NCBI GenBank assembly: GCA_027622595.1 | Contig: JAQBZZ010000001.1 | Coordinates: 72,181 to 107,221 of the forward strand | From: Chloroflexota bacterium | GTDB lineage: Bacteria > Chloroflexota > Dehalococcoidia > Lucifugimonadales > UBA2985 | DNA: 35,041 bases | Direction: 5' to 3' | Part shown: positions 2,949 through 26,116 of the stretch, one piece after another | How the letters are laid out: each line of letters begins with the position of its first letter | Numbering within the stretch: position 1 is the stretch's first letter | Made by a program: the position numbers and the translations under genes | The notes under the pieces: generated by a model | The model's database searches: none | Told to the model about the DNA's origin: nothing | The model's input: only the letters and a program-made list of their open reading frames with translations

Positions 2949-4457
2949 TCACTCTCTGCCCAGCAGTTTGCCCGCCAACTCCTCTTCCCGTTCCGATTCC
3001 GCCAGCAAGATTAACTCTCTGGTGTGTTCCAGCAGAGCTTCTCTACTCATCCCATTCCGACTCATGAGGCGGAATATAAAAGGGTGTGGAGTGGGTACCA
3101 CCTCTTCCCCGGGAGCTACCAAACTCTCTGTGAGCTTCTCACCGAGTCTTGTCCCTGTGAATACAATAGCGATGTCTTCATCTATACGCAAGCCCTTCAG
3201 CCTGATTAGCTTGCTGGCCAGATCGGAGATCTTAATGGGCTGGCCCATATTTAGCATGAACACATCCCCTCCCTGGGTGTAAGCGGCTGCCTGGATGATC
3301 AGGCTTACCGCCTCGGAAAGGCCCATGAGAAAACGGGTCATATCTTTATCGGTGACTGTTACAGGCCCGCCCTGGTCTATCTGCTTGAGAAAGAGGGGCA
3401 CCACGCTGCCTCGACTGTTGAGGACGTTACCAAATCGCACAGCAGTGAAGAATGACGTCTGATTGGACGGCGTGGATAATGTCAGTCTCTCCGCGAGGCT
3501 TTTGGTGGCTCCCATAACCCCTGTCGGCTCTACTGCTTTGTCGGTGGATATGAATACGAAACGCTCCACCTCGTACTTTCGCGCAAGCTCGGAAAGAATC
3601 TGTGTCCCCTTCAGGTTTACCAGTACCGCCTCGCACGGGGCTTCCTCCATCAGGGGGACATGTTTGTATGCGGCGCAGTGAAACACAATCTGGGGTCTAT
3701 GAGCAGCCCAGAGCGTCTCCATACGTTGTGTTCTCAGGATATCACCGACAAGTATCTTATGGGCTGTGTCGTTGCCCTGGGAAAACAGGTCTATTTGCAG
3801 ATCGTTAAGCCCGGTTTCATTGTTGTCCAGCATGAGCAGCATGGCGGGTTGAAAATTAACGACCTGGCGACAGAGCTCGCTGCCGATTGACCCCGCTGCT
3901 CCCGTCACAAGCACCACTTTACCAGCCAGGAGACCGTGGCACACGTCGATATCCAGAGGGATACTCTCTCTGGCCAGGAGGTCCTCCACAGACAAATCTC
4001 TAACCAGCGGTTGACCCCCATCACCCTCCATGAAAGAGAAGAGGTCTGGAGCTATCTTAATCTTCGCAGCGGTCTTCTCGCACAGTCCAAGTATCTCTTG
4101 GATATCCTCTCCATCTATCTTGCTGATGGCTACTATAATGGTGTCCACCTGGTGCTTCGATGCCAGAGCTTCCACGTCTTGTCTGGTCCCCAGCACCTTT
4201 GCCCCGTGGATGTTCATGCCCTGTTTGAGAGGGTCGTCATCAAGAAAACCCACCACGTGATAGTCGTCTGCCTGTATCTTCAAACGCCATGCAAGAAGCT
4301 GTCCTTCTTCACCTGCGCCGATGATCAATACCCGGTTTCCATATCCCCGGGTAGTTGCTTTCCACCGCCATAGGAGCCCGGTGATGAGACGCTGCCGGTA
4401 TCGCACCCCTGCGAAGGCGGCCAGGGTGAATATGCCGCCGGAAATAGGGATGCTCAT
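2949..4457 (-). CDS. CapD/PglF-type NDP-sugar dehydratase/epimerase, main part
   Basis: This is the catalytic part of a membrane-bound nucleotide-sugar 4,6-dehydratase of the WbpM/PglF/CapD family, used in capsule, O-antigen or glycoprotein sugar synthesis. Two Rossmann units are visible. The first is a CoA-binding-like domain starting VLIIGAGEEGQ. The second is an extended SDR domain starting VLVTGAAGSIGSE (GxxGxxG), later with ISTDKAVEP and VMGATK. In this family the usual catalytic Tyr of YxxxK is Met, as seen here. The N-terminal membrane domain is encoded upstream in another frame (4551-4791): the whole locus is 1843 nt, that is 614 codons plus one base. The present frame stays open upstream of 4457 to about 4551 and encodes expected family sequence, so 4457 is only an internal Met. 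It is either a frameshift mutation or a sequence error. Confidence 0.85.
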   Translation of the reverse strand: MSIPISGGIFTLAAFAGVRYRQRLITGLLWRWKATTRGYGNRVLIIGAGEEGQLLAWRLKIQADDYHVVGFLDDDPLKQGMNIHGAKVLGTRQDVEALASKHQVDTIIVAISKIDGEDIQEILGLCEKTAAKIKIAPDLFSFMEGDGGQPLVRDLSVEDLLARESIPLDIDVCHGLLAGKVVLVTGAAGSIGSELCRQVVNFQPAMLLMLDNNETGLNDLQIDLFSQGNDTAHKILVGDILRTQRMETLWAAHRPQIVFHCAAYKHVPLMEEAPCEAVLVNLKGTQILSELARKYEVERFVFISTDKAVEPTGVMGATKSLAERLTLSTPSNQTSFFTAVRFGNVLNSRGSVVPLFLKQIDQGGPVTVTDKDMTRFLMGLSEAVSLIIQAAAYTQGGDVFMLNMGQPIKISDLASKLIRLKGLRIDEDIAIVFTGTRLGEKLTESLVAPGEEVVPTPHPFIFRLMSRNGMSREALLEHTRELILLAESEREEELAGKLLGRE

Positions 4458-4791
4458 GGGAAGAGGGCGCTCTCCTATCCAGAGGAGATTGACTGCTGTG
4501 AGCAGTGCAGTGGTAAATCCAACCGCGCCAATGATAGACGTAACCTCGTAGGGAACTGGCGTAACGCCACACGCGCTGGTAAAGGCCGAAGAAGTAGTTG
4601 GCTGTTACATACGCGGCAGCGATTGGCAGGATGGTTACGTAATAGTCCTGAAGATGGTTCGATGGAACCTGTCCTTCGAACCGCAGCAGAAGAGCGGCGA
4701 AGTAGACCACCGCCACGACTGCGACATCGATGCCCATCGGAACGAGGTATCGCTCAAGTATCGAAGATGAGGCGAAGGAATTTCTGTCCAT
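4309..4791 (-). pseudogene. N-terminal membrane part of the frameshifted CapD/PglF homologue
   Basis: The first 80 or so residues, from ATG 4791, match the N-terminus of the CapD/PglF family: a cytoplasmic start, two or more membrane segments (VAVVAVVYFAALLLRF and ILPIAAAYVTANYFFGLY), then YQRVWRYAS. The frame then becomes nonsense (below about 4551) and runs on out of frame to a stop at 4309. Removing one C from the CCC run at 4551-4553 (GGG on the plus strand) joins WRYASS directly to YEVTSIIGAV, which is the expected continuation encoded by the main part. This is therefore one gene broken by a single +1 insertion, not two genes. Confidence 0.8.
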
Positions 4792-7135: not shown

Positions 7136-7984
7136 ATGAGTCTCCGTGACATTCCCATGAGACATATGTTTGGAGTTAAGATCGACAAAGACTCAAATTT
7201 ACGTAGGAATTATCGAAACCTACTTCGGGGCTCAGATACTCTTATGGAATCTACCCTAGACAGACTTCGCCGAGTGCTGGTGGCAATACTAGACATGCCG
7301 AGTTACGAAGATTTTGACAGAGTGGCTGTGCAGTTAACCTCTCGTTTGATAGTCAACTGCCGTGCAGGGTATCACTCATTGAAGTCGGGCCACCTGATTA
7401 GTGCGACCTCAATGGCTAGGGATGCAGTCGAAGTTTATGCTGCCTGTCATTTTCTTCACGAGAATAAACTGCTGGTAGAGCAATGGATCAGCGCCTCGAC
7501 ATTTCAAGAACGTCGCAGATTTTGGTTTTCGAAACTTCTTAACAGCTTCGAAGAAGGAGAAAGGGAAGCGCTAAAGGGAATCCATGACACTCTCTCAAAT
7601 GAAGTCCATGCCAACCATTTAGCCGTGACATATGTAAGGTCTCGGGTGCCCGTGGGAATTAACTACTACCAAAATGGCTGTTACTTACCAGGCATCGCAT
7701 CTACACTTCTAGGTAGTCTTCTCGCGGTATCTCTCCAACACCTCGATTGGATGAGGTATTCGTACTATGAAATCATTGATCTCACGGACATTTGTAGCGG
7801 TGAGATCCTTCTAAATCTACGTCGAGAACGGACCATTCTAGATGAACGTCTTAGAAGATTTGTGAAGCGAGCGGACCGTAGCATCGCTGCACGTGAGAAG
7901 GCCGGCAACCTTTCAAATGAAGAATTGGAACTTATGGAAGACTTGGTAGAATTCGTCGAGAGCCGGAATAGCGACTCGGATTGA
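7136..7984 (+). CDS. unrecognised protein, helical, possibly DUF5677/HEPN-like
   Basis: Protein of 282 residues with no signal peptide or membrane segment. It is mostly helical with many charged residues. A stretch around residues 85-110 (GHLISATSMARDAVEVYAAC) followed by a W, and then SNEVHAN near 155, resembles the spaced pattern of DUF5677 or HEPN-like proteins; this is only a hint. Codon use looks more AT-rich than in neighbouring genes, which suggests a different origin. Start choice: TGGAGG is 5 nt before ATG 7136; a GTG at 7124 is in frame but overlaps that ribosome site. It stands alone between the VWA gene and a convergent hydrolase gene. Confidence 0.6.
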   Translation: MSLRDIPMRHMFGVKIDKDSNLRRNYRNLLRGSDTLMESTLDRLRRVLVAILDMPSYEDFDRVAVQLTSRLIVNCRAGYHSLKSGHLISATSMARDAVEVYAACHFLHENKLLVEQWISASTFQERRRFWFSKLLNSFEEGEREALKGIHDTLSNEVHANHLAVTYVRSRVPVGINYYQNGCYLPGIASTLLGSLLAVSLQHLDWMRYSYYEIIDLTDICSGEILLNLRRERTILDERLRRFVKRADRSIAAREKAGNLSNEELELMEDLVEFVESRNSDSD

Positions 7985-8719: not shown

Positions 8720-9469
8720 TTACAGTGTCGGAGGATACCAGTCCAGGATGGCCTGCCCCCAGAGCATGGTGACGAAGGCTCCGGCAGCCATGAAGGGGCC
8801 GAAGGGGATGGCGTCCTTTCGTCCCTTGATGCGGAGTATCAGCAGCAGGCTGGCTATCAATCCACCGCTGACAACCGCCAGCAGCAGGGCCACCAGCACG
8901 TGAGGATAGCCGACCATGAGACCGATGAGTCCTCCCAGCTTCACGTCGCCCATACCCATTCCCTGGCGGTAGATCAGGAACGGAAGGCTGACGGCGGCAA
9001 CTCCTACCACAAACCCAAGGGCGGCACTCGCGATGGTGGGATCGGGCGAGAGAAATGCCAAAGCGAACGCGAAGGGCAAGCTGGAGTATACCACCACGTT
9101 GAGGATTAACTCGTGTTCCAAGTCTATGACGGCGATGGCCAGAAGGATGCTGGCATAGACAAGGGCGATTCCGAGTTCCACACCAAGGCCGAACTTCCAG
9201 AAGAGGAACCCGAACAGGACGCCTGTGGCCGTCTCCACCAGGGGAACCCTCACCGGGATGGATGCCCCGCAATAGCGACACCGCCCCCTCAACCATAAGT
9301 AGCTGAACACAGGCACCAGGTCAATGGGTGCCAGGATATGCTGACAGTTGGGGCAGTGGGACGCGCCGCGAACGATGGACTCTCCCGCCGGTAATCTGTC
9401 GATTCAGACATTGAGGAAGCTGCCCACGGCCAGGCCGAGCAATACAAATGTCACCAGCAAAGGGATCAT
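8720..9469 (-). pseudogene. pilD: prepilin peptidase (PilD/ComC-type) with in-frame TGA at codon 22
   Basis: Type IV prepilin leader peptidase and N-methylase, an integral membrane aspartate protease (A24). From ATG 9469 the reading gives a normal start with AVGSFLNV, then TGA at 9406-9404, then IDRLPAGES, the zinc-binding CPNCQ and CRYCG pairs, and the catalytic D in VIDLEHE and in GMGMGDVKLG. The total of 249 codons matches the usual family length, so only the stop is abnormal. Homologues commonly carry Cys, Val or Ile where the TGA stands. Without readthrough, an internal start (for example 9316) would lose the first zinc pair. It would process pilin-like proteins of the competence system encoded nearby (comEA and comEC). 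TGA ends other genes here, so it is a true stop codon in this genome. Confidence 0.85.
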
Positions 9470-9934: not shown

Positions 9935-10657
9935 CTATAGACCCTGGATTACCTGGTCCTGAATCTCCATGTGATGCTGAATGCCCTTCTCCGCAAGGGA
10001 TAGCATCTCATTCATGGCTGTCCTTGAGAACGGACTTCCTTCGGCGGTGCCCTGGACTTCGATGAAGTCGCCCTCCCGAGTCATCACCACGTTGAAGTCC
10101 ACATCTGCTCGAAAGTCTTCATCGTAGCAGAGGTCGAGGATAACCTCTCCGTCCACCACCCCCACGCTGATAGCAGCCACCGCACTTTTGAGAGGGATGG
10201 CGGTAAGGGCTCCCATTTTCACCATGTGATGCAGTGCCTGATACAGTGCTATGTAAGCGCCTGTGATAGCAGCCGTGCGTGTCCCACCGTCGGCTTGCAG
10301 CACATCGCAGTCGATGACCAATGTGCGTTCTCCAAGGGCCTTCATATCCACAACCGACCTGAGGGATCGGCCGATGAGGCGCTGAATCTCCTGGGTGCGG
10401 CCCGCCACTTTGCCAGTCTCGCTCTCCCGTGCCCTCCGGGTCAGCGTGGAGCGGGGCAGCATGCCGTACTCCGCGGTCACCCATCCCTTTCCCTGTCCAC
10501 GCAGGAAAGCCGGCACCCGCTCCTCCATGGATGCGGTGCAGATGACCTTGGTCTCTCCAACCTCTATCAGCGCGGAGCCTTCGGGGAACACCAGGTATGA
10601 GGGTGTTATCTTCACCTCGCGGGGTTGGTCGTCTGCTCTGCCGTCAACTCTGAACAA
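9935..10657 (-). CDS. rph: ribonuclease PH
   Basis: Phosphate-dependent 3'-5' exonuclease that trims tRNA 3' ends in the cytosol and acts as a hexamer. Its 240 residues match the usual length. Visible family marks are the [11 protein letters not shown] opening, [16 protein letters not shown], the [14 protein letters not shown] helix, and [17 protein letters not shown]. The catalytic Asp is in [15 protein letters not shown], and EVQGTAEG lies near the end. The start is TTG 10657 with AGGAGG about 4 nt upstream. It follows comEC on the same strand after 64 nt. Confidence 0.96.
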
Positions 10658-10721
10658 GGTTCCTCCTGACTAGTAATGAGCGTTCAGTATAGCATACGCA
10701 TGTGTGTGCACGGCCTGGCCG

Positions 10722-13187
10722 TTACCTCTCGGTCTTCATCCTCAACCGCGATCCATCGGACACGAGCTTCACGTTTCCGTGTATAGATGTAATGAGGATG
10801 CGGTCTTCGTCCAGCAACCCGGCCAGCGTGTCCAGGGTCTCCTGGTGCGGATGTCCAAAGCGGTTGTCCTCCCCGACGGGTATGACCGCCACTTGAGGCG
10901 ATACCTCCCGCACAAATGCCAGCGATGTGGAGGTGCGGCTCCCCTGGTGCGCCACCTTGAGCACAGTACTCTGTAGGGGCACCGAGCTATGCAGTAGATA
11001 GCTCTCTCCGTCCCAGTGAAGGTCGCCGGTGAAGAGAAAAGATGTCTCCCCGTAAACAAGACGTGTCACCACCGAGGCGTTGTTAACGTCCGAAGAGGTG
11101 CCGGTTAACAGCCTATCCGGCGGATACATCACGTCGAGTACAAGGCATTCTTCCAGCTTGATTTGTTGACCCGCAATCGCCTGCATGACAGGGACACCAC
11201 GCTCCGCCAGGATGGCCCTCCATGAAGCATACTCAGGGGCCGGGTAATCGAACTCGCGCTCCAGCACCAAATCCACCCGGTATCTCTGGAGCACCTCCAA
11301 CAGACCGGCTACATGGTCCTCGTGGGGGTGGGTGAGGACTAACAGGTCAAGGCTGTGGTCCCAGAAGGGAACGCGTTCTCCCAGAAGAGATAGAATCCGT
11401 TGCGGATCAGGTCCGCCGTCGATGAGGACCTGCCGACCTTCCGGGGTGACTATGAAGATGGCATCCCCCTGGCCGACATCAAGGAAGGTGACGTGGAGTT
11501 GACCATCGGGCCTTGAGGAAGCGGCGGCCCATACACTCGCCGACGCTAGGAGGGCCAGTGCCACCATTGCCCAGAAGATACGGCCTCCAAGCAAGCCAGG
11601 CCCCACCTTGCCCAATTTTTTGATTGTTCCGCTCGCGGATTCTGGCAGCATGGGCAAAATCACCTGTAATTTGGGCCGTTTCACCAAAAAACCAATCAGC
11701 ACCGCGTAGTAGGCGACTACCAAGGGCGCTCCTATTCGCCCAACCTGCACCGTGCCTCCGGGGATGGCGTCGAAGAACTCTATCACCAGTTTGAGGTAGG
11801 ACAATTGAATCCAGGTGCCCCAGCCTGCTACCTGAGCCGCGCCTGTGTTCACCAGTCCAAGGACAGCAGTCATGAACCCCATGCCGAGGACAGGAGCCAA
11901 AATAGGCAGGGCAAGGAGCGTGGCTGGCAGGCCAACCAGAGAGACCTGTTGGAAGTAGAAGGCGACCAGCGGGAGGGTAGCCAACGTAGCCGCCACGGTC
12001 GCCGACACCGGGTAGGCCAATGCCCTGCTCCACCTACCTTCTCCTTCACCCTCCGGACCTTCTGAGTCTTCTGAAAAAATTCGGCGGATGCCTCTTTCGA
12101 TGGGAGGAGCCAGGAGCACAAGCCCGGCCATCGCAGTGAAGCTCAACTGAAAAGATACGCTGGCGAGGATTTTGGGTTCAAGCCCCACCATGATGGCGGC
12201 CGCAGCGGCAAGGGCGGGCATGATGCTGTTCTGCCTGCCCAGATACAGCCCCACCAGATAGATACTGCCCATGATGGCAGCCCTCTGTACCGAAGGCGAC
12301 ATACCAGCGAGGCCGGCATAGCCCCAGATGGAAAGGAGTGGGATGAGGATGTAAAGCTGTCGTCTTGCTCCGACGAGCCACCGGCTCATGGCAAGGGAAA
12401 AGGCAAGCAGCACGCCTACATGCAGGCCGGATATAGCCAGTATGTGGGAAGTGCCCGTGTCTCTGAATGCCTGGGTCAACTCCGGTGGCATGGTGCTCCG
12501 CCGTCCCAACAGAAGGGCCTGGGCCAGCGAGTTTTGGGGTTCGGCAACGGCCTGCGACAGGCCGCGGGACAGCCGATATCGCAGCGAGTATATTGCTTCC
12601 AACACCATGTTCCCCTCGCCCTCTCCCGTCAGTTCCACTCCGGGGTAAATCATAGTGGAGAAAATACCCTGCCTTGCAAGGTAATCCCGGTAGTCGAAGT
12701 CCTGGAACACAGGAGGCTCCGCGGGGTCTCCCACGACAATCAGCCGGTCCCCGTAGCGAAAGAGAGGCTCCTGCCTGGTTGCTATCAGAGAGGTGGATGG
12801 TTTGGACGTGACCAGCAGGTCTCCACGAGAGTCTATCCAGTCTCCATTCACCTTTACCCGCTCCACCGATATGGGAAATTGCCACCCGGAGGTACGTCGC
12901 TCCGGGTCGGCGGATATGACCCCCTCTACGGATATTCCCCTCGTGCCGTTGTACCCGTCTATGGGCACCGGCGTCCCGAGTTCCGACGGAACAGCGGCTC
13001 TCAACGCTCCCAGCGACAGCAGCGCGAACGCTAAGGCCGGCAGCAGAGATAGACCTCTACCACGCAGGAGAAGGGCCAGGAGAGCCGACGCCGCAAGAAA
13101 GAAGAGCCCACTTGGCCAGGAAAACGCCACCAGCGTTGCCAGGTATATCCCAGCAATCCAGGCCCCAGCCATTACGATGAGCAACAT
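10722..13187 (-). CDS. comEC: ComEC/Rec2 DNA-uptake channel
   Basis: About 821 residues with three parts. An N-terminal DUF4131 region has membrane segments and a soluble OB-like stretch (about 1-200). The Competence domain is polytopic, with HILAISGLHVGVLLAF around residue 270. The C-terminal metallo-beta-lactamase domain carries THPHEDH (H620, H622, D624, H625). ComEC carries single-stranded DNA across the inner membrane during transformation, and the lactamase domain is thought to degrade one strand. I chose ATG 13187 (MLLIVMAG) because the longer frame to 13262 is encoded by the MITE-like repeat; AGGGGA lies upstream at loose spacing. comEA lies just upstream on the same strand. Confidence 0.93.
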   Translation of the reverse strand: MLLIVMAGAWIAGIYLATLVAFSWPSGLFFLAASALLALLLRGRGLSLLPALAFALLSLGALRAAVPSELGTPVPIDGYNGTRGISVEGVISADPERRTSGWQFPISVERVKVNGDWIDSRGDLLVTSKPSTSLIATRQEPLFRYGDRLIVVGDPAEPPVFQDFDYRDYLARQGIFSTMIYPGVELTGEGEGNMVLEAIYSLRYRLSRGLSQAVAEPQNSLAQALLLGRRSTMPPELTQAFRDTGTSHILAISGLHVGVLLAFSLAMSRWLVGARRQLYILIPLLSIWGYAGLAGMSPSVQRAAIMGSIYLVGLYLGRQNSIMPALAAAAAIMVGLEPKILASVSFQLSFTAMAGLVLLAPPIERGIRRIFSEDSEGPEGEGEGRWSRALAYPVSATVAATLATLPLVAFYFQQVSLVGLPATLLALPILAPVLGMGFMTAVLGLVNTGAAQVAGWGTWIQLSYLKLVIEFFDAIPGGTVQVGRIGAPLVVAYYAVLIGFLVKRPKLQVILPMLPESASGTIKKLGKVGPGLLGGRIFWAMVALALLASASVWAAASSRPDGQLHVTFLDVGQGDAIFIVTPEGRQVLIDGGPDPQRILSLLGERVPFWDHSLDLLVLTHPHEDHVAGLLEVLQRYRVDLVLEREFDYPAPEYASWRAILAERGVPVMQAIAGQQIKLEECLVLDVMYPPDRLLTGTSSDVNNASVVTRLVYGETSFLFTGDLHWDGESYLLHSSVPLQSTVLKVAHQGSRTSTSLAFVREVSPQVAVIPVGEDNRFGHPHQETLDTLAGLLDEDRILITSIHGNVKLVSDGSRLRMKTER

Positions 13188-13222
13188 TGCTAACGAACTT
13201 CCCCTGAAATACACCCATGCAT

Positions 13223-13329
13223 TGTCATTGCGAGGACGCCGACATGTCGAGCGACGAAGCAATCTGGAGGAGGGGCGTACCCCACAGCCAGATTGCCACG
13301 GCCCTCCTCGGTAGGGCCTCGCAATGACA
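13223..13329. repeat. 107-bp MITE-like palindromic repeat between comEA and comEC
   Basis: Perfect 13-bp terminal inverted repeats, TGTCATTGCGAGG at 13223-13235 and its complement at 13317-13329, enclose a second inverted pair, GCAATCTGG at 13259-13267 and CCAGATTGC at 13288-13296. A related element sits at 20633-20745. The design is that of small non-coding repeats scattered between genes. Its inner end supplies a false upstream start and reading frame for comEC. Confidence 0.85.
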
Positions 13330-13356
13330 TTAAGGCAAGCTTCGGGAGGAACATTC

Positions 13357-13896
13357 TTAGTAAACCGTTATGAACTCCCGCAGGTCTTCCAGTGTCTTAG
13401 GGCCTATTCCAGGTTTCAATAGCAGGTCTTCTTCCCTGGCGAACAGGCCGTTCTGCTCCCGGTATTCCACGATTGTATTTGCCGTTACTTCGCCGATGCC
13501 TGGGAGGGTTTCTAGTTCGTCGACGGAGGCGGTGTTGATGTTGATTTTGCCCGGTACTGGGAGTTCAGTTGGAATCACATCGCCAATCCTGGGTATGAAG
13601 AAGTGTGCTTCGTCCGTTACTCGAAGGGCGAGGTTGACTCGCATCGGGTCGGCGTCTTCTGTGAGGCCTCCTGCCGTTACCAGAACGTCTTCCAGCCTAT
13701 CGTCAGCGTAGGCCAGATATACGCCCGGGTTGTTCACGGCCCCGTTGACGTAGACCTTGATCTCGGGTTGAGGCGTCGAAGTGGGCAGCACGACCTCTAC
13801 GAAACCCGGCGATGACTGCCGTACCAGCGTGAATACCCCTCCGCCCAGAGCAGCTATTATCAGGAACAGGATGGTCAACTGCACCAGTACTCTCAT
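13357..13896 (-). CDS. comEA: ComEA, competence DNA receptor
   Basis: About 179 residues: one N-terminal membrane segment (LVQLTILFLIIAALGGGVFTL is the region), an extracellular SLBB domain (VYVNGAVNNPGVY onward), a linker, then a C-terminal helix-hairpin-helix pair, ININTASVDELETLPGIGE followed by LLLKPGIGPKTLEDL. This is the standard ComEA layout; it binds double-stranded DNA outside the membrane and hands it to ComEC. ATG 13896 gives MRVLVQ directly before the membrane segment. A TTG at 13929 would add 11 residues, and neither start has a strong ribosome site. It lies upstream of comEC on the same strand and is divergent from the adenosyltransferase gene. Confidence 0.92.
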   Translation of the reverse strand: MRVLVQLTILFLIIAALGGGVFTLVRQSSPGFVEVVLPTSTPQPEIKVYVNGAVNNPGVYLAYADDRLEDVLVTAGGLTEDADPMRVNLALRVTDEAHFFIPRIGDVIPTELPVPGKININTASVDELETLPGIGEVTANTIVEYREQNGLFAREEDLLLKPGIGPKTLEDLREFITVY

Positions 13897-13980
13897 AAAA
13901 CGTGCTTCTCGAAGGGAACTCGCTGCCAATATAAGTGGCCTTTATAGACCTGTCAAATAAAGCCCTCGTGACTAACCATG

Positions 13981-18872: not shown

Positions 18873-19745
18873 ATGACCTCTAATGCGGAGCACACACCAG
18901 GCGAAGGTCCCAGGATAGAGTTGGCCAAGCCCAAGATAGAGTTGGACGGCATAGGTAAGGACTTCGTCGTCGACAGAAACGCTCTCCCTGTGCTGCGTGA
19001 CGTGGACCTGAGCGTCCATGAGGGGGAGTTCGTGAGCATCATCGGGCCGAGCGGCTGCGGCAAGAGCACCATACTCAACATCATCGCCGGGCTGGACGAG
19101 CCGACAAGGGGCGAAGTCCGCACCGACGGACGGCCGTCTGCTCGACGACTGGGGGCCATCGGGTACATGCACCAGAAGGACCTCCTTCTTCCGTGGCGCA
19201 CCGTGCTGGACAACGCAATCCTGGGCCTTGAGCTTCAGGGAAAACCCAAATCACAGAGCAGAAGCCGTGCCCTGGAACTGATGGACTCCTTTGGCCTCAA
19301 GGGCTTCGAGAAAAATTATCCCGCCCTGCTCTCCGGGGGGATGAGACAGAGGGTCGCATTTCTGCGAACGGTGCTGGCAGACCACCAAGTCATCCTCCTG
19401 GATGAGCCTTTCGGGGCACTGGACGCTATGACAAGGGCCAATATGCAGGAGTGGCTCCTTCAGCTATGGGAGTCCTGGGGAAAGACCGTGATCCTTGTGA
19501 CCCATGACGTGGAGGAAGCGGTGCTTTTATCCGATAGGGTGTACGTGCTCACCGCCAGGCCAGGCAGGGTGAAGATGGAACTATCGGTCGACCTGCCACG
19601 TCCCAGACGGTATGAGATGGTGACGGAAGAGTCTTTTGTGAAGATGAAGGCCGGGATAATAGCAGCCCTGCGGGATGGCAATACGCGGAATTGGGTTGTG
19701 GATGATGGGAATGGCATCCCCACCGTGGCGGAGGGTCAGCCATGA
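18873..19745 (+). CDS. ABC transporter ATP-binding protein, thiamine precursor uptake
   Basis: Nitrate/sulfonate/taurine-type ABC ATPase, about 290 residues. Walker A is GPSGCGKST, the Q-loop is in YMHQKDLLLPW, the signature is LLSGGMRQRV, Walker B is VILLDEPFGALD and the switch His is in VTHDVEEAV. By sequence alone it could serve many substrates. The TPP riboswitch upstream, the THI5/NMT1-like binding protein and thiD in the same unit make it a ThiZ-type ATPase for a thiamine pyrimidine. The start is uncertain: TTG 18852, GTG 18861 and ATG 18873 are all in frame, and the leading 20 residues are poorly conserved. It overlaps the permease by 4 nt (ATGA). Confidence 0.88.
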   Translation: MTSNAEHTPGEGPRIELAKPKIELDGIGKDFVVDRNALPVLRDVDLSVHEGEFVSIIGPSGCGKSTILNIIAGLDEPTRGEVRTDGRPSARRLGAIGYMHQKDLLLPWRTVLDNAILGLELQGKPKSQSRSRALELMDSFGLKGFEKNYPALLSGGMRQRVAFLRTVLADHQVILLDEPFGALDAMTRANMQEWLLQLWESWGKTVILVTHDVEEAVLLSDRVYVLTARPGRVKMELSVDLPRPRRYEMVTEESFVKMKAGIIAALRDGNTRNWVVDDGNGIPTVAEGQP

Positions 19746-22807: not shown

Positions 22808-23326
22808 ATGAGGTTTACAATTGGTGGACAGGATTATGAGCTAGATAGGGATCAGGTTCTAAAAGCCGCCACGGGCATTGTTCCTACTTCCCCCGACGCG
22901 CGTTATAAATACTTTGTAGTAATCAACGGCCGGCGGTATCCTATCAAACAACTGGTTCGCTCGGCGCTGACGCGTCCTCACATGCACTTCACAGCAGGAT
23001 ATGCTTACCACATCCTTGAAAAATTGGGATTTGAAATTCACAGTTTCGGTGAAGACGGGGATGCTGGCCAACTCCCGCATCATCCGGCAGGCGATGCCGG
23101 TGCCCAAGATTCTCTGAAATTCGTAATCACTCTTGAACGAGACGGAGACGGCTTTGTAATAGCCAGTTGTCCTGCCTTGCCGGGATGTCACTCTCAGGGT
23201 AGAACCAGCGATGAAGCCGTCTCAAATATCAGAGAGGCAATACGCGGCTATATTGCCAGCATGCTCACGCATGGAGAGCCAATACCTGCAATCACAGAGG
23301 TACAAGAGATAGAGGTTGCAGTCTAG
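22808..23326 (+). CDS. hicB: HicB-family antitoxin fused to an N-terminal domain
   Basis: 172 residues in two parts. The C-terminal 70 (from about 102) are a HicB domain: LKFVITLERDGDGFVIASCP, then ALPGCHSQGRTSDEAVSNI and REAIRGYIA. It should neutralise the HicA RNase encoded next to it. The N-terminal 80 residues (YKYFVVINGRRYPIKQLV, then AYHILEKLGFEI) form a small domain of the kind seen at the start of some HNH or restriction-type nucleases; a nucleic-acid role is inference. The linker (about 81-95) is encoded by a 39-bp copy of thiD sequence at 23047-23085, read in a different frame. AGGAGG precedes ATG 22808. A normal HicB has only the C-terminal part. The stop overlaps the hicA start (TAGTG). 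Confidence 0.8.
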   Translation: MRFTIGGQDYELDRDQVLKAATGIVPTSPDARYKYFVVINGRRYPIKQLVRSALTRPHMHFTAGYAYHILEKLGFEIHSFGEDGDAGQLPHHPAGDAGAQDSLKFVITLERDGDGFVIASCPALPGCHSQGRTSDEAVSNIREAIRGYIASMLTHGEPIPAITEVQEIEVAV

Positions 23327-24450: not shown

Positions 24451-25311
24451 TCACGGGAAGGCGGCAGTTGTTATGACACCACCCATAACCTTGACTCCGG
24501 TGGGCCACGGGCTTCCCTGGGCTGGCTCTATGGATACACCCATAGTCTGGAAATCCGTAATGTGACCGATGTCCTGTACCATCAACTGGCCATAGCCCGT
24601 TTCGTTCACTGTGAAGATGCCGCCACTCGCCCTGATACCATCTGCGATGAGCCATAGCTGGTATGCCTTATCCTTCGGCAGCGGTTGAAGATTCAGCGCT
24701 TCCAGGATGGCCCCGGTGGCGTGGGGACTGATCATGAGCATGCCCCTGGATTTTGGAGCGGCCTCTGCTCCCTCCAGCATGATGGTGGAGACCCCCGGCA
24801 TGGATGCGACGTAGGCCAGGTCCAGTTGATCGAAGAGCAGTTGGGATAGTCTCTGGTTTTCATCCTGCATCTGGTCAAGCTGCTCCTGTAGAGTCGCCGA
24901 AATCCGGGAGTCTTGGTTCTTCAGGTCCCTTACATCCAACCACAACAGCAGAGAGCCAACGCTCAAGCCAAGCAGGGATATGGTCATGAGGGCCATTGCT
25001 GTGGCAGCCAGGGGTTGCCTCAAGCTGTTCCTGATGAAACGGAATCTAAATATTCCATTTGCCGCACCTCGTCGCATGTTGGGACTGGCACTGGTACCAA
25101 CCATTTCCAGCACGCGCTGTTTGAGTGCAGGCGGGGCCTGCAACGAATCGCCAACTGTCGATAGAAATGCGGTGGACGGACTCTGCTCATGGAACAGGGC
25201 GAGGCAGGTGGGGCACTCCCGGATGTGGGCCTCCACCAGGGCCTGCTCCCTCTCATCGAGGGCTCCAAGAAGGTATGCGGGTACCAGCTCTTCCACTTCT
25301 AGACAGTTCAT
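24451..25311 (-). CDS. anti-sigma factor, zinc-finger plus RskA domain
   Basis: 286 residues. The N-terminal cytoplasmic zinc-binding anti-sigma domain has C3, H29, C33 and C36 (HIRECPTC). A membrane segment lies at about 101-125. A coiled coil follows (DLKNQDSRISATLQEQLDQM and on), and then an extracytoplasmic RskA domain from about residue 165 to the end (AYQLWLIADGIRASGG, PWPTGVKVMGGV). It holds its ECF sigma factor at the membrane until regulated proteolysis; that mechanism is known for RskA and inferred here. ATG 25311 overlaps the sigma-gene stop (ATGA), so the two are co-translated. Confidence 0.92.
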   Translation of the reverse strand: MNCLEVEELVPAYLLGALDEREQALVEAHIRECPTCLALFHEQSPSTAFLSTVGDSLQAPPALKQRVLEMVGTSASPNMRRGAANGIFRFRFIRNSLRQPLAATAMALMTISLLGLSVGSLLLWLDVRDLKNQDSRISATLQEQLDQMQDENQRLSQLLFDQLDLAYVASMPGVSTIMLEGAEAAPKSRGMLMISPHATGAILEALNLQPLPKDKAYQLWLIADGIRASGGIFTVNETGYGQLMVQDIGHITDFQTMGVSIEPAQGSPWPTGVKVMGGVITTAAFP

Positions 25312-25538
25312 AACGTCTCTCCAGCGGAAGCGCCAACACCTTCTCGCAATTTCTTCAAAGCCGATCTCATGTGCGTCTTCACCGTGCCCAGGGGTTTGTT
25401 CAATATCTCGGAGATTTCCTTATGGGTGTAACCCTGGAAATAGCTCAAGAAGATCACCCTCTGGTACTCTGCGGACAGGCCATTCAGGGCGTTCTGTATC
25501 CTGTGAAACTCCACACCCGTTTCCAGCCTGGGACTCAA
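25308..25538 (-). CDS. ECF sigma factor, C-terminal half (region 4)
   Basis: Encodes sigma region 4: IQNALNGLSAEYQRVIFLSYF, then the helix-turn-helix HKEISEILNKPLGTVKTHMR and SALKKLRE. It binds -35 elements. It is in a different frame from the N-terminal half; deleting one C of the CCC at the junction (about 25531) gives LEQLESRLETGVEF, a normal sigma sequence. The full locus, 25308-25872, is 565 nt, or 188 codons plus one base. On its own this half has no ribosome site. It overlaps the anti-sigma start. Confidence 0.85.
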   Translation of the reverse strand: MSPRLETGVEFHRIQNALNGLSAEYQRVIFLSYFQGYTHKEISEILNKPLGTVKTHMRSALKKLREGVGASAGETL

Positions 25539-25872
25539 GCTGTTCCAGCACCGACTCGTTTTCCAGTTCCAGAGGGGTTTCCTTTGACCTCTTGCGTCGC
25601 TTCCTGAGTTCGTCCACAGCGCGGTTGTGGGCGATGTGAGTTATCCAGGTCGAAAATCGGGCTTTCAGGGGGTCAAATGTCCCGCTGTTACGCCACACGG
25701 ATAGGATTACGTCCTGGGTCACCTCTTCTGCGTCGTGGCGGTCTCCGAGAAGAGTCATGGCCAGGGAGAACACCTTGGAGGAATACCGGTCATACAAAGC
25801 CGCGAGGGCTTGTTGATCCCCGGTAGAGACCAAGGTGGTCAGTTCGCCATCCTCCAAGAGGTTGTAGTCCAC
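25420..25872 (-). pseudogene. ECF sigma factor, N-terminal half (region 2), frameshifted
   Basis: From GTG 25872 (AAGGGGA 6 nt upstream) to about codon 113 the frame encodes sigma region 2: ALAALYDRYSSKVFSLAM, GDRHDAEEVTQDVILSVWRN and FSTWITHIAHNRAVDELRKR, the core-binding and -10-recognition part. After ESVLEQLES it slips out of frame into an unrelated tail ending at 25420. The RskA partner confirms the family. If the extra base is real, the sigma factor is inactive and the anti-sigma gene has no target here. If it is an error, the pair is intact. Confidence 0.85.
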
Positions 25873-26116
25873 GGGCGTCCCCTTGCACAGGAGTACTGCC
25901 GTGTTAATCTAATATACGCAGCGGCAGTGCATCTGGATGTTGATTGATACTGGGAAGTATAAATCAAATGGCTGAAATTCTCTAATCGTGCTTCTGGTTG
26001 ATGAGAAACCTAGCTGCAAGCCACACGATTTGAATTGCGCTACCAGGGAGAGACTGCTAGAATTCTCAGAGAATCGCGTGTGTAAATCCGTTTTGGCCGT
26101 TTTGGGGGAGGATTAC

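Follow-up and report, generated by a model that had tools for sequence, protein, structure and literature searches.

An in-frame TGA at codon 22 interrupts a pilD-like prepilin peptidase gene in a Chloroflexota MAG; we put at about 0.6 the probability that this TGA is a real stop which arose recently, by a one-base nonsense change, in an orphan pilD. This reading is favoured because the TGA is followed by no SECIS signal above chance, the site tolerates other residues, the listed relatives have no TGA there and the gene is probably an orphan. An earlier note on this DNA had preferred mutation or sequence error, and these four lines of evidence bear that preference out. The figure of 0.6, like the rank given to each of the three other readings, is a judgement rather than a computed posterior. 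The gene lies in a stretch of 35,041 nucleotides (the window); the MAG to which it belongs has 1.67 Mb in 86 contigs, with 91.3% completeness and 4.88% contamination.

According to this reading, the one-base change would cut pilD at codon 22, leaving the cell with no full-length prepilin peptidase. The gene may already have been dispensable because neither an assembly ATPase for type IV pili/type II secretion nor prepilins are visible in the lineage; loss of the pilus would have relaxed selection on pilD. The rest of the frame would still be clean because the break is young. We infer that the change is recent, and that it is biological rather than an assembly error. What counts against this reading is a Sec-decoding host with a TGA where 23 of the 29 class relatives have Cys, together with a pilD frame that is otherwise clean and keeps its presumed catalytic and zinc residues.

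Read on the minus strand (window:8717-9472:-), pilD has 249 codons and a single internal stop, at the place where an in-frame TGA had been noted; its bases are 9406, 9405 and 9404, and the plus strand shows TCA. The translation runs TMIPLLVTFVLLGLAVGSFLNV, stop, IDRLPAGESIVRGASHCPNCQ...YPPTL, stop. An in-frame TAG sits one codon before the ATG at 9469, so a start further upstream is impossible. When the TGA is read through, Pfam finds A24_N_bact (PF06750, 121.8 bits, residues 10-93) running across the site, in agreement with the earlier description of the flanking sequence as normal for PilD; Peptidase_A24 (PF01478, 55.6 bits) follows at residues 103-206 of the full frame. The read-through product has the N-terminal CxxC domain and the A24 domain with two conserved Asp of an A24 prepilin peptidase. 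It shares with PilD/ComC (MEROPS A24, PF06750 + PF01478) the two domains, each scoring over cut-off, and the residues Asp116, Asp175 and the four CxxC cysteines; it differs in the TGA at codon 22, in the lack of an ATPase over cut-off and in the lack of a prepilin in the half of the MAG that was scanned. Feature coordinates are collected in Table 1.

Table 1. Location of pilD features, other interrupted genes and probable selenoprotein genes (window positions unless a locus is named)
Feature	Location	Strand	Remark
pilD-like prepilin peptidase gene (A24 family)	8720..9469	-	ATG 9469, TAA 8722-8720; broken at codon 22
In-frame TGA, codon 22	9404..9406	-	Near end of predicted helix 1
First CxxC pair, C39 and C42	9344..9355	-	Intact; presumed zinc site
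Second CxxC pair, C64 and C67	9269..9280	-	Intact; presumed zinc site
Asp116 codon	9122..9124	-	Invariant in pilD homologue alignment; presumed catalytic
Asp175 codon, GxGD motif (MGMGDVK)	8945..8947	-	Nearly invariant; presumed catalytic
198-aa open frame from GTG, 3' of TGA	8720..9316	-	Candidate frame, ORF list
Best SECIS-like hairpin after TGA, CCGGCGGGAGAGUCCAUCGUUCGCGG	9366..9391	-	Fails 4-bp upper stem rule
capD-like polysaccharide synthesis gene	2949-4791	-	Frameshift in region 4457-4600
ECF sigma factor gene	25250-25880	-	Frameshifted
treT (TreT_GT1)	L158 1600, contig C44, about 8.4 kb before window	-	One in-frame TGA, no SECIS
MscS-type channel gene (mscS)	L196 about 7294-7790, elsewhere in MAG	+	In-frame TAG and frame change
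selD	L214 10720	-	TGA, SECIS hairpin
AhpC-TSA/redoxin, WASW-U-GCR	L202 1967	-	TGA at CxxC-type Cys, SECIS hairpin
AhpC-TSA/redoxin, WASW-U-ACR	L237 1940	+	TGA at CxxC-type Cys, SECIS hairpin
Thioredoxin-like protein, FYSDY-U-ALC	L210 3708	-	N-terminal hydrophobic stretch, SECIS hairpin

The residues that presumably matter for activity are well conserved. Of 30 order loci, 28 have Cys at C39, 27 at C42, 26 at C64 and 28 at C67; in the class, all four are Cys in 29/29 loci. We take these cysteines to have a zinc role, and Asp116 and Asp175 to be catalytic. An AlphaFold2 model (mean pLDDT 88.7) predicts a helix over residues 2-25 and places residue 22 near its end; no useful PDB relatives of PilD were found by sequence. 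The best named relatives are Dehalococcoidia/Dehalococcoidales MAGs, and identity to Dehalococcoidia homologues reaches about 63%.

At codon 22 itself, Cys is common and not needed. The class loci (n = 29) have C 23, I 3, V 2 and L 1; the order loci, 29 of 30 of which cover the site, have V 11, C 7, A 4, I 2, S 2, L 2 and T 1, so that 22 of 29 carry V, A, I, S, L or T instead of Cys. Both sets consist of best matches from pilD searches of the relatives' genomes. The expectation that homologues often have Cys here is right for the class and less so for the order (7/29). As judged from these alignments, codon 22 does not appear to be a redox Cys, in contrast to the nearly invariant zinc cysteines. 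In 80 pilD loci collected with a search pattern that held SFLNVCID, Cys is found in all (80/80); because of this bias, Cys conservation in those loci and in the homologue alignment is set aside.

Matches to pilD occur in 38 of 98 genomes (the own genome included), in 228 of 393 genomes of the class and in 85 of 250 of the order; the three sets overlap. Among the matches listed from these sets, whose relatives include no other species of the own genus, TGA at the codon-22 site is seen in the own gene only. TGC stands at the site (L015) in G002, which belongs to the same family and is the nearest genome that has pilD. In G271 a TGA falls at the very end of the alignment, as do the stops in G435 and G131, and the G464 match has one TAG. 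Broken pilD genes are present in two other genomes of the order: in G047 (L022) there is a frameshift and a stop near residue 149, and in G045 (L029) the gene is garbled in the middle. One-base nonsense routes in pilD reach a Cys codon in 5 of 64 cases (5 of 23 among those giving TGA); a TGA on Cys is therefore mildly, not strongly, unusual.

pilD is probably an orphan here, within the limits set by MAG incompleteness. Neither the assembly ATPase nor the prepilin substrates that go with a PilD were seen in the MAG, which is 91% complete and was half scanned for prepilins: over the whole MAG, the T2SSE ATPase (PF00437) reaches 19.3 bits, below the cut-off of 24.9, and no prepilin motif occurs in 834 kb of the 1.67 Mb. 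Applied to 80 pilD loci of relatives, the same scan finds a prepilin motif next to the gene in 28; it also finds one at one of two T2SSE loci. A strong pilD (E <= 1e-30) is found in 26 relatives; T2SSE exceeds its cut-off in 21 of them but not in the other five (G093, G027, G011, G008 and G017), so an orphan pilD does not by itself mean decay. Among the four other genomes of the family, pilD is present in G002 only, which also has T2SSE; G001, G003 and G004 lack both a pilD match and a T2SSE above cut-off. A search for a second pilD copy, which the earlier note had proposed as a check, finds none in the MAG, where pilD is the sole PF01478 match.

The neighbourhood of pilD is uninformative, since eight window neighbours (comEC, comEA, rph, DUF3303, a hydrolase and others) show one weak match to the relatives' pilD loci. 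comEA, comEC and rph adjoin pilD (9935-13929, minus strand); these competence genes are kept, and no pilus ATPase is seen.

The best surviving alternative, which we still consider unlikely, is a sequence or assembly error: the cell's pilD would be intact, and the TGA would be a miscalled or minority-strain base in the consensus. A MAG of 86 contigs with 4.88% contamination is open to such errors, and other genes in it are interrupted. The frameshifted capD-like and ECF sigma genes and treT with its TGA are on the same contig as pilD; mscS, with its TAG, is elsewhere. The ECF sigma gene has region 2 in one frame and a region 4-like part in another. These faults include indels, whereas the pilD TGA is a substitution in a gene that is otherwise clean, and several of the interrupted genes may be genuine pseudogenes. 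The stops in treT and mscS are like that of pilD in being single-base stops inside a conserved frame; they differ in falling at non-Cys positions (the treT TGA takes the position of a non-Cys residue in solved TreT), and mscS additionally changes frame. Whether biological or technical in origin, lesions that break genes are not rare in this MAG; mutation and sequence error draw equal support from them, and they do not tell the two apart. At a contig end, an amylase/trehalohydrolase-like C-terminal part (L235 2-763, plus strand) seems out of frame with its start.

Selenocysteine needs serious weighing as a reading of the pilD TGA, because Sec machinery and Sec genes are present in the MAG. SelA (556.7 bits) and SelB (387.1 bits) were found over cut-off by profile search of the MAG; SelD (377.5 bits) and tRNA-Sec (75.8 bits) also exceed their cut-offs. 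The tRNA has the anticodon tca (ARAGORN), and selD has one in-frame TGA at its own Sec site, RCAG-U-ASK. The four components of a host for selenoprotein genes are thus all present. The selA/selB/selC search suggested earlier is positive, and since these genes are present the Sec option rises above what the earlier note had assumed. By all signs, the organism decodes TGA as selenocysteine elsewhere.

Besides selD, a scan for in-frame stops that covered 614 kb, later 834 kb, of the MAG brings out three thioredoxin-fold genes in which TGA takes the place of a CxxC-type Cys. Many entries from such coding-potential scans are ordinary gene junctions. We chose the genes named here by eye and checked some of them with Pfam. 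selD and the three thioredoxin-fold genes are probable selenoprotein genes, and the TGA positions of the latter presumably correspond to the redox Cys of their families. One of the two AhpC-TSA/redoxin proteins carries a TPR. Genome-wide reassignment of TGA, or a suppressor tRNA, was rejected: ARAGORN typed 39 of 41 RF00005 matches (leaving out C30:26362 and the cut C54:1-54), and among these the sole TCA anticodon is that of tRNA-Sec; tRNA-Trp has CCA and tRNA-Cys has GCA. Ordinary genes in the window also end with TGA (ORF list).

The review PMC13188914 (Fig. 2 legend) describes a bacterial SECIS as having an apical loop of 3-9 nt with a G among its first two positions, an upper stem of 4-16 bp, a distance of 16-37 nt from the UGA and an energy of <= -7.5 kcal/mol; it adds that some bacterial SECIS elements lie outside this model. 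selD and the three thioredoxin-fold genes (4/4) fall within all of these constraints, with contiguous upper stems of 9 (selD), 7, 5 and 8 bp and loops GUU, GUC, UGUAU and GUA. The best hairpin after the pilD TGA agrees in loop (GUCCA), spacing (23 nt) and energy (-7.8 kcal/mol) and fails in the upper stem, which has 2 bp against the 4 bp required. If the stem rule is dropped pilD passes, and so do 96 of 500 Cys codons sampled from the own genome and, among the homologous pilD sites, 12 of 137. With the stem rule in force, 53/500 and 5/137 pass, so the full rule is not strongly selective either; a GU/GG loop was asked for in both counts. The treT TGA, a non-Cys stop, resembles the pilD TGA in this test.

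A simple stem score gives a similar picture: pilD scores 10, a value reached by 18% of 1464 own Cys codons and 20 of 107 homologous sites, and the four Sec genes score 14-23, reached by 0.1-4.4% of Cys codons. This comparison leans towards the Sec genes because its demand for GU in the loop was first taken from them; the PMC13188914 constraints have no such lean. The pilD TGA has no SECIS signal above chance, and the earlier statement that no convincing SECIS lies downstream stands.

Selenocysteine in PilD itself is accordingly rated as improbable. It would require SelB to recode the UGA through the hairpin at 9391-9366, or through a non-canonical SECIS, to give a Sec prepilin peptidase. The complete machinery (selA, selB, tRNA-Sec and selD with TGA at its Sec site) and the three further thioredoxin-fold genes argue for it, as do the Cys found in most class relatives and the loop, spacing and energy of the hairpin; the low share of random nonsense routes that meet a Cys codon adds a modest factor. 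Set against this are a hairpin with a 2-bp upper stem that does no better than ordinary Cys codons or homologous sites, a position that tolerates V/A/I/S/L/T and for which no redox role is known, relatives without TGA at the site among the matches listed, and the probable orphan state of the gene. The own-genome Sec genes (SelD and the redoxin/thioredoxin-like genes) are like pilD in having TGA where many homologues have Cys, and unlike it in having SECIS hairpins of 5-9 bp with GU loops. We take their sites to be redox or catalytic Cys, which the pilD site does not appear to be. These genes serve as a yardstick for SECIS strength and for the redox role of the site; in both respects pilD does not come up to them.

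The literature gives no precedent that we could find. Judged by titles, no paper on Sec in prepilin peptidases was found; the parts of PMC13188914, PMC12013277, PMC1794560 and PMC1088965 available to us name no such selenoprotein family, and the word 'peptidase' is absent from the main texts of PMC13188914, PMC12013277 and PMC1088965. A first Sec-containing prepilin peptidase, with Sec at a non-redox membrane-helix position and a minimal, non-canonical SECIS, would be a long shot. That reading includes, at the same low odds, a near-neutral replacement of Cys by Sec in a host that has several thioredoxin-fold selenoproteins. Were the Sec reading correct, Sec could be placed at non-redox positions with hardly any SECIS, contrary to the rule, expressed in the title of PMC1794560, that Sec usually replaces redox-active Cys. 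The gene is a clean example of a Cys-aligned TGA in a Sec-decoding genome that resembles a new selenoprotein, although most likely it does not mark one.

Least probable of all, and highly doubtful, is a shortened working enzyme restarted at the GTG at 9316, or a low-level near-cognate UGA leak: A24 enzymes without the N-terminal domain do exist (e.g. the TadV/CpaA type), and the two conserved Asp codons and the whole Peptidase_A24 domain, with its full PF01478 match, lie within the 198-aa frame, but the product would be without two parts that relatives conserve, helix 1 and the first CxxC pair, it would have no ATPase above cut-off (MAG) or prepilin (half of the MAG) to serve, and the 39 of 41 typed tRNA matches include no second UCA-anticodon tRNA to support a leak.

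Two loci stand apart from these readings. L231 has, at 19568 on the minus strand, a coding-like frame with one TGA, a hairpin of -13.4 kcal/mol after the TGA and no Pfam match. In the window, at 22808-23326 (plus strand), an uncharacterised N-terminal part is fused to a HicB-like antitoxin domain.
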